Position numbers and translations under genes: made by a program
In this document: positions 49,301-60,964 of the stretch, in pieces
How positions within the stretch are numbered: the first letter of the stretch is position 1
Layout: each line of letters starts with the position of its first letter
Assembly: GCF_015482585.1 (NCBI RefSeq)
Contig: NZ_CP049742.1
Span: forward strand, 950,501-1,014,500
Length of the DNA stretch: 64,000 nucleotides
Direction of reading: 5' to 3'
Source of the DNA: Mangrovibacillus cuniculi
Lineage (GTDB): Bacteria; Bacillota; Bacilli; Bacillales; R1DC41
The notes under the pieces: generated by a model
Seen by the model: the letters and a program-made list of their open reading frames with translations, nothing else
Database searches by the model: none
Told to the model about the DNA's origin: nothing

Positions 49301-50702
49301 TTCAGGTGAATATCAACCACGTGCCCATAATTATACGAAGATCCTCTTTGGAGAGGAGTATGTATTTAGAGCAGGTACGATCGGTACAGTAGCAGAAAAA
49401 ACTGCCTTTGGGTATGTGAAAGGCTATGCCGGAGACAGAAATTTGACGCTTCGGAATGCAGAGGTAGAGAGATTAGCTCTTGGTTGTACAGGTGTAAAGA
49501 GAACAACAGGACAGCATCCAGGTGGTATCATAGTTGTTCCAGATTATATGGATATTTATGATTTCTCACCAATACAATTCCCTGCGGATGATTCTACTTC
49601 TGAGTGGAAAACGACCCATTTTGACTTCCATTCCATTCATGATAACTTGCTGAAACTTGATATACTTGGCCACGATGATCCTACCGTAATTAGGATGCTA
49701 CAAGATTTATCTGGGATTGACCCAAAGACAATTCCGACGGATGATCCGGAAGTAATGAAAATATTTAGTGGTACGGAGTCATTGGGTGTCACAAAAGAAC
49801 AAATCATGTGTAAAACTGGTACACTAGGCATTCCAGAGTTTGGTACTAGATTCGTACGTCAAATGTTAGAAGATACGAAGCCTTCTACTTTTTCAGAATT
49901 AGTACAGATTTCCGGTCTGTCACATGGTACAGACGTATGGCTTGGAAATGCACAGGAATTAATACACAATAAAACATGTACGCTATCTGAAGTTATTGGT
50001 TGTCGTGATGACATCATGGTATACCTAATTTATCAGGGTTTAGAACCATCTAATGCATTCAAAATCATGGAGTCTGTTCGTAAAGGTAAAGGTTTAACAC
50101 CTGAAATGGAAGATGAGATGATCCAAAATGGTGTACCTGATTGGTATATTGATTCATGTAAGAAAATTAAGTACATGTTCCCGAAAGCCCATGCTGCTGC
50201 ATATGTCTTAATGGCAGTACGTATTGCATACTTTAAAGTCCACCATCCACTACTATATTACGCAGCGTACTTTACGGTAAGAGCAGAAGATTTTGACGTG
50301 GATGCAATGGTAAAGGGTTCTACATCCATTCGTTCAAGAATAGAAGAGATTAATGCAAAAGGTTTAGATGCTTCTCCAAAAGAAAAGAATTTACTTACAG
50401 TGTTAGAGTTAGCGCTAGAGATGTGTGAAAGATCATTTTCTTTCCAAAAGATTGATCTATATCGTTCGAGCGCAAGTGAGTTCATCATAGATGGAGATAC
50501 GTTGATTCCACCGTTTAATTCTATTCCTGGATTGGGTACGAATGCTGCTTTCAATATAGTAAAAGCACGTCAAGACGGAGAGTTCTTATCTAAAGAGGAT
50601 CTTCAGCAGAGGTCAAGGATTTCTAAAACCGTTATTGAGTACCTCGATCAACAAGGATGCCTTGGTGATTTGCCGGAGCAAAACCAGTTGTCGTTGTTTT
50701 GA
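46374..50702 (+). CDS. polC: DNA polymerase III alpha subunit, PolC type
   Basis: Replicative polymerase of low-G+C Gram-positives with built-in proofreading. It has 1442 residues, close to B. subtilis PolC. The N-terminal domain and OB fold (about 235-330) are followed by the split PHP domain ([14 protein letters not shown] near 342). The DnaQ-like exonuclease is inserted in it, with Asp431 and Glu433 in [19 protein letters not shown]. Palm catalytic Asp971 and Asp973 are in [17 protein letters not shown] Cys4 zinc module lies near 920. The C-terminus ends QNQLSLF, a beta-clamp-binding motif. AAGGGGGAT precedes the start. Confidence 0.99.
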
Positions 50703-50743
50703 TTGTGTGATTTAGAAGCACCACTTTCGCTTTGTGACTGCAC

Positions 50744-50883
50744 GTTTTGGGCTCATTCGTGTGAAACTTGTTTCACACGCCTTTCAGCTTTGCTGAAAGG
50801 TAGCAGATACGTATACCAAGTCTTTAGGGAAAGCTAGCTTTCCCGGCGACTTGTCATACGTATCTGCTAAATGAGCCCAAAAC
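50744..50883. repeat. Perfectly paired cloverleaf (four-way-junction) palindrome
   Basis: Outer stem: GTTTTGGGCTCATT (50744-50757) with 50870-50883, 14 bp perfect. Arm 1: 50758-50767 with 50770-50779, 10 bp perfect. Arm 2: CCTTTCAGC (50780-50788) with 50792-50800, 9 bp perfect. Arm 3: TAGCAGATACGTAT (50801-50814) with 50856-50869, 14 bp perfect. Arm 3 continues through CAAGTC (50817-50822) with 50848-50853 to the palindrome GGGAAAGCTAGCTTTCCC (50827-50844). The four helices abut with no unpaired base at the junction. No reading frame is present. It lies between the polC stop and the rimP promoter. It may be a MITE- or REP-like element or a structured RNA; no target duplication is evident. Confidence 0.85.
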
Positions 50884-50912
50884 AGTTTGTTTCCTGCATC
50901 CCAAGGGGGCGT

Positions 50913-50941
50913 TTGCAACAAATTATTTTTTGTGCTATCAT
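50913..50941 (+). promoter_or_regulatory. Promoter of the rimP-nusA-infB operon
   Basis: TTGCAA at 50913-50918 and TATCAT at 50936-50941 are spaced by 17 bp, with an extended TG at 50933-50934. Transcription would start near 50948, so the mRNA has a leader of about 105 nt. Confidence 0.75.
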
Positions 50942-50973
50942 CAAATTGGAAATACTATCTATAGTGTTCGAGC

Positions 50974-51000
50974 AAAGAGTGGGCTAAAAACCCACTCTTT
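50974..51000 (+). promoter_or_regulatory. Leader hairpin before rimP
   Basis: AAAGAGTGGG (50974-50983) is the exact complement of CCCACTCTTT (50991-51000), with a 7-nt A-rich loop. A smaller hairpin, ACTATCTATAGT, lies at 50953-50964. The T-run after the big stem is poor, so it may be an attenuator or a processing and antitermination site rather than a full terminator. A hairpin of this kind in front of rimP is, from memory, common in Bacillaceae. Confidence 0.6.
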
Positions 51001-51052
51001 CGTATTGTGTTAGATTTTTCCTCGTAAGCAGGAATGATAGTAGGAGGTACAC

Positions 51053-51520
51053 ATGAGCAAAGTAACGGAGACGGTTGAACAGTTAGCTTCTCCTATAGTG
51101 AAGGATTTTGGCTTGGAGCTTGTGGATGTAGAGTACGTAAAAGAAGGTTCTAACTGGTTTTTACGTGTTTACATTGATAAACCAACTGGTGTTGATATTG
51201 AAGAGTGCGCGATGGTAAGTGAACGTCTTAGCGAAAAATTAGATGAACTAGATCCGATTAGCGAAAACTACTTCTTAGAAGTATCTTCCCCTGGGGCAGA
51301 GCGACCATTGAAAAAGCCAAGCGATTTTGAAAATGCGATTGGAAAACATGTACATGTTAAATTGTACGAACCAATTGAAGGAGAAAAGGTTTTTGAGGGT
51401 ACGCTTAAATCATATTCAGAAGAAGAACTAACGATTGAAGTGACCATTAAGACTCGTAAAAAACTTTTTACCTTGCCAACAGCAAAAGTGGCAAAAGCAC
51501 GCTTAGCAGTAATTTTCTAA
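51053..51520 (+). CDS. rimP: Ribosome maturation factor RimP
   Basis: Binds the immature 30S subunit and helps its assembly. It has 155 residues. Landmarks are [50 protein letters not shown] and [20 protein letters not shown] near residue 82. An SH3-like C-terminal domain ([15 protein letters not shown]) follows. GTAGGAGGT precedes the ATG. First gene of the nusA-infB operon, as in most bacteria. Confidence 0.97.
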
Positions 51521-58720: not shown

Positions 58721-58846
58721 TTACGCAAAAATCTTCGTTATAGGTGTATTTTTCTCATTTTTGACTTATCATAGAGATGGACTAACTTTTTTATAGTACA
58801 GTACATAAATTTAAGAACAAGTAGTAATAGAGAGGGGTATTAAATT

Positions 58847-60964
58847 ATGTCACAAGACAAACAAACCTTCTCCTTCGAATGGGCAGGTCGTCCATTAGTA
58901 GTAGAAGTTGGACAACTAGCCAAACAAGCAAGTGGTGCTGCGTTAATTCGTTATGGAGATACAGCTGTCTTAAGTACAGCAACAGCTTCTAAAGATCCGA
59001 AACCATTGGATTTCTTCCCATTGACAGTAAACTATGAAGAGCGTTTATATGCAGTCGGTAAAATCCCAGGAGGTTTCATTAAACGTGAAGGTCGTCCTAG
59101 TGAAAAAGCTATCTTAGCAAGTAGATTAATCGACCGCCCAATTCGTCCTTTATTTGCAGATGGATTCCGTAATGAAGTACAAGTAATCAACATCGTAATG
59201 AGCGTTGATCAAAACTGTTCTTCCGAAATGGCAGCTATGTTTGGTTCCTCACTAGCTTTAACTATTTCAGACATTCCTTTTGAAGGACCGATTGCTGGAG
59301 TGGTAGTAGGAAGAATTGATGGAGAGTTTGTTATCAATCCTACTGTGGAACAACAAGAGAAATCAGATATGCACCTTGCTGTAGCAGGAACAAAATATGC
59401 TATTAACATGGTAGAAGCTGGTGCCGATGAAGTACCAGAAGAAGTTATGTTAGAAGCTATCATGCATGGTCACGAAGAAATCAAAAAACTAATCGCTTTC
59501 CAAGAAGAGATTGCAGCTGCTGTAGGTGTAGAAAAACGCGAAATCTCTTTATATAAAATTGACGAAGAGATCGAAAAATCCGTTCGTGAACAGTGTGAAG
59601 CTGACATGATTAGTGCGATTCAAGTAGTAGAAAAACATGCACGTGAAGAAGCTATTCGTGCAGTAAAAGACCGTGTTATTTCATCTTATGAAGAAAAAGA
59701 TGAAGTAGACCAAGATGAAATGAAACAAGTGAAACAAGTACTTGATAAAATGGTAAAACAAGAAGTACGTCGTTTAATTACAGAAGACAAAATTCGTCCT
59801 GATGGTCGTAAACAAGACGAAATTCGTCCACTTGCTTCTCAAGTTGGTCTTCTATCTCGTACGCATGGTTCTGGATTATTCACTCGTGGACAAACACAAG
59901 CACTAAGTGTGTGTACGCTTGGACCATTAGGAGATGTACAAATCCTAGACGGTTTAGGGGTGGAAGAAACGAAACGTTTCATGCACCATTATAATTTCCC
60001 TCTATTCTCTGTAGGGGAAACTGGTCCTTCTCGTGGTCCTGGTCGTCGTGAAATTGGACACGGGGCACTTGGTGAAAGAGCACTTGAGCCAATTATTCCT
60101 AATGAAGAGGATTTCCCATATACAGTAAGATTAGTGTCTGAGGTACTAGAATCAAACGGTTCTACATCTCAAGCAAGTATTTGTGCAAGTACATTAGCAA
60201 TGATGGATGCTGGTGTTCCAATTAAAGCACCTGTTGCTGGTATTGCAATGGGACTTGTTAAGTCTGGAGAGCACTACACTATTTTAACGGACATTCAAGG
60301 TATGGAAGATCACCTAGGAGATATGGACTTTAAAGTAGCTGGTACGGCTAAAGGTGTAACAGCACTTCAAATGGACATCAAGATCGATGGATTATCTCGT
60401 GAAATTCTAGAAGAAGCTTTAACTCAGGCGAAACACGGGCGTATTCATATCCTAGAATCTATGATGGAAGCAATTGCAGAGCCTCGTAATGAGCTTTCTC
60501 AATATGCTCCTAAAATCATTACAATGAAGATTAATCCAGATAAAATTCGTGATGTTATTGGACCAAGTGGGAAACAAATCAATAAGATTATTGAAGAAAC
60601 TGGCGTAAAAATTGATATCGAACAAGATGGAACGGTATTTATCGCATCTACAAATCAAGAGATGAATGATAAAGCTAAATCGATCATTGAAGATATCGTA
60701 CGTGAAGCAGTTGTAGGTCAACTGTATCTGGGTAAAGTAAAACGTATTGAGAAGTTTGGTGCATTCGTAGAAATCTTCTCTGGTAAAGACGGATTACTTC
60801 ACATCTCAGAGATTGCAGAAGAGCGTATTAAACAAGTAGAAGACGTACTAAAACTTGGGGATGAAGTACTTGTAAAAGTTACGGAAATCGACAACCAAGG
60901 ACGCGTAAACCTTTCTCGTAAAGCAGTTCTTAAAGACCAAAAAGAAGCAGAAAATAACGCATAA
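58847..60964 (+). CDS. pnp: Polyribonucleotide nucleotidyltransferase (PNPase)
   Basis: Phosphorolytic 3'-5' exoribonuclease and degradosome component. It has 705 residues. The first RNase PH-like domain ([36 protein letters not shown]) and a helical linker precede the catalytic second one, which has [55 protein letters not shown] and [19 protein letters not shown]. The KH domain ([25 protein letters not shown]) starts near 562 and the S1 domain ([30 protein letters not shown]) near 626. AGAGGGGT is the ribosome site. The rpsO-pnp order is widely conserved. Confidence 0.98.

Follow-up and report, generated by a model that had tools for sequence, protein, structure and literature searches.

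The described systems closest to the element reported here are the MITEs and cassettes with IS1595-type ends, with which it shares terminal inverted repeats, 8-bp AT-rich duplications, the lack of a transposase of its own, a multicopy state and an intergenic location. It differs from them in its core, a four-arm cloverleaf paired throughout, in which one arm varies in sequence yet stays paired. The bcr1 repeat of the Bacillus cereus group is, by description, similar in being structured, in its size (147 and 167 bp) and in its mobile-element character (PMC2267715, available excerpt). It is set apart, also by description, because a title cited in that excerpt (PMC2267715) calls it specific to the B. 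cereus group, whereas the cloverleaf family occurs in other genera. REP/BIME palindromes are likewise palindromic intergenic repeats. Finally, the available parts of two papers on inverted repeats report that template switching homogenises the arms of such repeats and inverts their spacers (PMC8604942) and that it can create and maintain hairpins (PMC8794818). The arm homogenisation, paired double substitutions and spacer inversion found in these parts (PMC8794818, PMC8604942) resemble the changes described below, but the systems treated there are RNA genes and yeast coding DNA, whereas ours is a multi-arm bacterial mobile element. A literature search returned no description of such a cloverleaf element among the matches listed. 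As a MITE the element belongs to a known kind; its fully paired, four-arm form is unusual, and the way in which it evolves is informative.

The copy under study lies in the window, by which we mean the whole stretch of 64,000 nucleotides of Mangrovibacillus cuniculi DNA that was analysed, and it is flanked by the genes for PolC (stop at 50702) and RimP (start at 51053), both identified with NCBIfam. A preliminary description of this DNA had proposed a 140-nt cloverleaf at 50744-50883, and our folding reproduced it with four helices meeting without an unpaired base at the junction. The fold is identical with RNA and DNA energy parameters, and none of 200 dinucleotide shuffles reached the minimum free energy of either (-83 kcal/mol for RNA, z -13.3; -55.1 kcal/mol for DNA, z -14.6). 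On the forward strand, the outer stem pairs 50744-50757 with 50870-50883 over 14 bp and is conserved in sequence in the copies. Arm 1 (50758-50779) and arm 2 (50780-50800; 9 bp with a 3-nt loop) are hairpins defined by the fold and by comparison of the copies in this genome. Arm 3 (50801-50869) is made of a 14-bp base helix (50801-50814 with 50856-50869), a 6-bp middle helix (50817-50822 with 50848-50853) and a tip, and its sequence varies among copies while its pairing is kept. Helix lengths of 14, 10, 9 and 14 bp had been given initially; these are correct for the outer stem, arm 2 and the base of arm 3, but arm 1 has 9 bp in the fold and reaches 10 only if a 2-nt loop is allowed. The 18-bp perfect palindrome said to cap arm 3 is indeed present at its tip (GGGAAAGCTAGCTTTCCC, 50827-50844), but the arm below it is interrupted by small internal loops on either side of the middle helix, which the preliminary description did not contain.

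As previously stated, no gene explains the structure, since it is not covered by any ORF of at least 60 aa. Rfam gave no family at threshold on the window element. With a relaxed threshold, a search of five loci yielded only sub-threshold matches of the hairpin (microRNA) type, and these were rejected because they look like generic long hairpins. The sole above-threshold Rfam match in the window was rliD, a Listeria antisense RNA, at 58726-59027 on the reverse strand (54.9 bits for a threshold of 50).

A BLAST search of the genome itself, one of the checks that had been proposed, found copies at 8 places in its 3.15 Mb, and a covariance model built from these 8 copies returned the same 8 places and no others among 150 candidates scored. 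A loose spacing pattern run on this genome gave mostly noise (9 forward matches for 4 in the reversed control, one of the 9 being an element). When folded with their flanks, all 8 copies form three arms on an outer stem, less perfectly so in L006, L007 and L025. Their mean pairwise identity, with gaps counted as letters, is 0.89 in the outer stem, 0.77 in arm 1, 0.86 in arm 2 and 0.46 in the middle of arm 3. Across these copies 93.9% of structure cells are paired, as compared with 29.8-45.7% when the partners are slid, and both-sided changes occur in 25 of 59 pairs, which none of 500 shuffles reached; the reference structure used for these counts came from one of the compared copies, and this favours it somewhat. 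By eye, some copies carry the tip of arm 3 in the opposite orientation to the remainder, for example L005 when compared with L004. Directly upstream of the full copy L004 there is a second, partial copy comprising the outer stem and the start of arm 1.

Within the order, at least 64 of 397 genomes, from 18 of 135 genera, contain a family match; as the model search of these genomes scored 8 candidates per genome, both the 64 and the copy numbers per genome are lower bounds. A class-wide model search matched 7 of 398 genomes, six in the same order and one (G465) weakly and partially, at model positions 68-114. When named genomes were scanned with a pattern, 96 stretches matched, and the 80 listed come from Rossellomorea, Alkalihalobacillus macyae, Pseudalkalibacillus, Niallia endozanthoxylica, Oceanobacillus sojae, Gracilibacillus, Robertmurraya and several Bacillus strains. 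The plasmid collection held no blastn match to the element and the viral contigs no exact pattern match. We then worked with 124 elements from 51 genomes, taking one row per place from the listed matches and leaving out matches on the reverse strand, further loci for a place already included (L010, L065, L069, L147), the deletion form L018 and listed places that were not fetched. Their core measures 122-142 nt, about 137 nt typically and 135-140 nt in 110 of the 124. At 117 places classified with mechanically called ORFs, the two flanking ORFs are codirectional in 82 cases, divergent in 26 and convergent in 9. The neighbouring genes change by genus and include sufC, ileS-lspA, tig and pgi among others.

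In several genomes the cloverleaf is enclosed by longer inverted repeats starting GGCTMTGTTA or similar, with 8-bp direct repeats outside them. Both terminal repeats were recognised in 30 of the 124 copies (mean in shuffled flanks, 0.55), and 19 of these 30 (19/124) also have an 8-bp target duplication with at most one mismatch (shuffled, 0). A single end was seen in 15 of the 124 copies and in 15.25 with shuffled flanks; since one-ended counts equal the shuffled level, only the two-ended copies count, and the ends are unproven for about three quarters of the copies. Intact elements measure about 195-205 bp and their target duplications are AT-rich. In G097 and G126, full 195-bp elements occur beside 106-bp forms in which arms 2 and 3 are missing and a single uninterrupted hairpin is left; 68-bp forms are found in G097 as well. 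The 106-bp forms are L258, L260 and L271, the 68-bp forms L264 and L274 are armless, and matching 8-bp flanks were found at L258, L260 and L264. A related end pattern is present in 123 of the 397 genomes and in none of the reversed-control rows listed. It is absent from the window's genome and from the g27 genomes with copies (one genus), which hold most of the shared insertion sites, so that there it is the core by itself that points to a MITE origin.

Two longer TIR-bounded elements, L286 and L293, carry remnants of an IS1595 transposase (NF033547, E 1.2e-14 and 3.9e-17; PF12762, E about 4e-4), all matches being fragments below the curated cut-offs. An acetyltransferase gene lies beside the remnant in L286 (1501-2468, about 1.0 kb) and a polyketide-cyclase-like fragment in L293 (1501-2646, about 1.1 kb), and in L294 (760 bp) similar ends enclose a different gene, with no transposase seen. 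No intact autonomous partner element was found. PF12762, the IS1595 transposase, was found in none of five genomes (G000 and G044 among them), namely the window's genome and four relatives with copies, and the copies here therefore look stranded. Five copies (L057, L086, L087, L103 of G103 and L113 of G255) have quite different ends on both sides, CTATATAAGTTGAA, as if the cloverleaf module in G103 and G255 had been taken up by a second transposon type. Taken as a family, the element bears out the suggestion of a DNA-level, MITE-type origin, given its dispersed copies, its IS1595-type inverted repeats, its 8-bp target duplications and the short structure-free spacers of near relatives. The suggested recent origin is not supported for the window copy, as its outer terminal repeats and target duplication are unrecognisable and PF12762 was not found in the genome.

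What the window copy has in common with other copies of its genome, outside the core, is a short inner stretch only. This stretch, GTGACTGCA (50734-50742, forward strand), also occurs in the flank of L002 and L003 and, inverted, on the other side of L004, as compared by eye, and it is probably the inner remnant of a terminal repeat. Among the 8 copies of this genome, only L005 has both ends and a target duplication. The insertion would extend approximately over 50703-50911, that is from the polC stop to the rimP promoter-like site, its exact ends being no longer recoverable.

With the start of the RimP match taken as its end, the spacer behind polC spans 350 nt in the window's genome and 160, 160 and 148 nt in L311, L312 and L313, which have the highest RimP identity (73-74%). 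In four aligned relatives a rimP promoter-like stretch comes soon after polC. The difference in spacer length fits one element of about 190 nt, and an insertion at a variable polC-rimP site is the likely, if not proven, cause of the extra length here. Other copies of the element exist, so that the mobile-repeat or conserved-RNA reading of the preliminary description was not refuted, yet spacer lengths vary widely among relatives. The comparison it had proposed, run on 23 relatives of other families whose polC end could be located (in 6 others it could not, and 11 of 41 matching genomes were without the locus), gave 148-968 nt, with 7 spacers of 181 nt or less and 7 above 350 nt. Unrelated sequence is present in the spacers that were read. 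The model matched none of the 29 other rimP loci searched. A loose regular expression also accepted the spacers of L329 and L337, which were rejected as copies for want of a model match. The spacers of L328 and L329 hold other sequence, with a GC-rich insert in L329 that follows an IS1595-like end (by eye), so that the polC-rimP spacer may be a frequent landing place.

To describe how the arms change, we compared nearest neighbours of at least 93% identity among the 121 elements with a three-branch fold (all but L137, L145 and L153), which made 40 comparisons, 19 of them within one genome. They contain 86 paired-site differences, made up of 14 pairs changed on both sides and 58 single-sided changes. 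All 14 two-sided changes end in a Watson-Crick pair and 7 of them involve transversions, for which there is no G.U intermediate. Random placement of an equal number of changes gave a mean of 0.26 double-changed pairs with a maximum of 3 in 5000 trials, and sliding the partners by 1-4 columns gave 0-3 double-changed pairs, 0-2 of them complementary. Fast compensation under selection is a possible source of such double changes. As single-sided changes are common and mismatches are evidently tolerated, a templated origin is the simpler reading. A looser run, at 86% identity over 64 tree edges and with G.U allowed, gave 61 compensated double changes (35 with transversions) and 5 uncompensated ones, together with 47 single changes that keep the pair, 75 that break it and 72 places where the second sequence alone is paired.

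At least one mismatch is present in 87 of the 124 copies and none in the other 37. On the element strand G.T and A.C mismatches number 57 and 49 (p 0.50), and on the gene-sense strand of codirectional spacers 39 and 27, again without significance (p 0.18). RNA selection on one strand should favour G.T, and the near equality of the two classes therefore favours templated correction at the DNA level. In L137, 12 nt exactly complementary to the element's own outer stem stand in place of the left half of arm 2, while the orthologues L054, L084 and L089 keep arm 2; as far as these sequences allow us to read it, this is a direct trace of copying. Loops exactly inverted with respect to a near relative were found in 4 of 119 changed loops, which we judged too weak for loop inversion to serve as main evidence.

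We consider it probable, on these observations, that the window element is an old and now probably immobile MITE copy with IS1595-type ends, whose near-perfect arms are kept paired by templated change at the DNA level. An origin of the window copy by MITE insertion, with no need for an RNA function, is the most likely one. An IS1595-family transposase would have moved the non-coding MITE in trans, and the MITE would have inserted between the polC stop and the rimP promoter. A strand folding into a hairpin would then allow a change on one side to be copied to the other, presumably by polymerase template switching or by mismatch repair in an extruded hairpin, and arm 3 would in this way drift in sequence while staying paired.

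Conservation at shared sites bears on whether selection is also involved. In 11 orthologous sets, hand-picked from shared flanks, identity is 0.921 in the outer stem, 0.934 in arm 1, 0.891 in arm 2 and 0.817 in arm 3, for 0.713 in the 70-nt flanks. The values vary from set to set; for tig, conservation of arm 3 (0.722) does not exceed that of the flanks (0.736). This suggests that some constraint acts on the sequence near the junction, where a binding protein or a mild effect on a transcript may be involved. One may ask whether the structure works as DNA, as a cruciform or single-strand hairpin bound by the transposase or by a protein of the host, its pairing being maintained by selection and not by mutation. 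This explanation otherwise overlaps with the templated MITE, and it agrees with the sequence conservation of the outer stem and arms 1 and 2, with the narrow range of core length and with mismatches that show no strand bias. We find it doubtful, although deserving of attention, because the 106-bp and 68-bp forms have the same ends and some of them 8-bp flanks, so that the whole cloverleaf seems unneeded for movement unless the arms were lost after insertion. The frequency of single-side changes in near-identical copies (58 of the 86 differences) and of copies with at least one mismatch also speaks against it.

A functional structured RNA appears unlikely. On this view the element would act, for example, in a 3' UTR, in processing or in regulation, selection on the transcript would maintain its pairing, and its mobility would be secondary. 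Such an RNA would account for the strong covariation among the copies of this genome, for the conservation of the outer stem and arms 1-2 above the flanks and for the persistence of the element at shared positions in different species, next to tig, sufC, ileS-lspA and pgi. On the other side, neither strand has the significant excess of G.T over A.C, and transversions take part in half of the double changes between near-identical copies (7 of 14). Moreover the neighbours change among genera, the copies occupy codirectional, divergent and convergent contexts, and their orientation relative to codirectional genes shows 50 in the same and 34 in the opposite direction (p 0.10). A structured RNA at the 3' end of the polC mRNA is possible as a secondary effect.

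We regard it as very improbable that the element is the transcription terminator of polC. Its position directly behind polC and its great stability would suit this role, but, in agreement with the earlier remark that no T-run explains it, its 3' side ends in A with no T-run following, and copies are found in every type of intergenic context. The one terminator-like site in 50650-51080 lies downstream, at 50974-51000. This hairpin is in the rimP leader and is strongly conserved in four aligned relatives. A REP/BIME element, a chance palindrome or an assembly artefact would be palindromic and intergenic too, but these have a negligible chance of being correct, as REPs measure 20-40 bp (PMC3733652, available part) whereas the 137-nt core is too large for the REP-type label once offered, no shuffle folds as well, copies in independent genomes already refute chance and artefact, and 8-bp duplications are present.

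The MITE copy kept paired by templated change may also be part of a wider picture, which we put forward tentatively as less likely true than not. The cloverleaf would be a self-contained module that travels on at least two types of transposon end (IS1595-type and that of the G103 and G255 copies) and that different genera have kept, independently, at the housekeeping loci tig, sufC, ileS-lspA and pgi. Its junction and conserved arms 1 and 2 would serve the host, and arm 3 would be free to vary, with template switching preserving its pairing.

When paired bases covary, this is commonly read as proof that an RNA structure is functional. Here strong covariation is found in a mobile DNA element, with no strand bias of its mismatches and with paired transversions between near-identical copies, and this points to a mutational rather than a selective cause. 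The cloverleaf family would be a warning for RNA discovery based on covariation. Given many copies of varied age and close relatives, hairpin-templated mutation in bacteria could also be studied well in this natural system, and the copies that persist next to housekeeping genes offer a testable case of possible exaptation.
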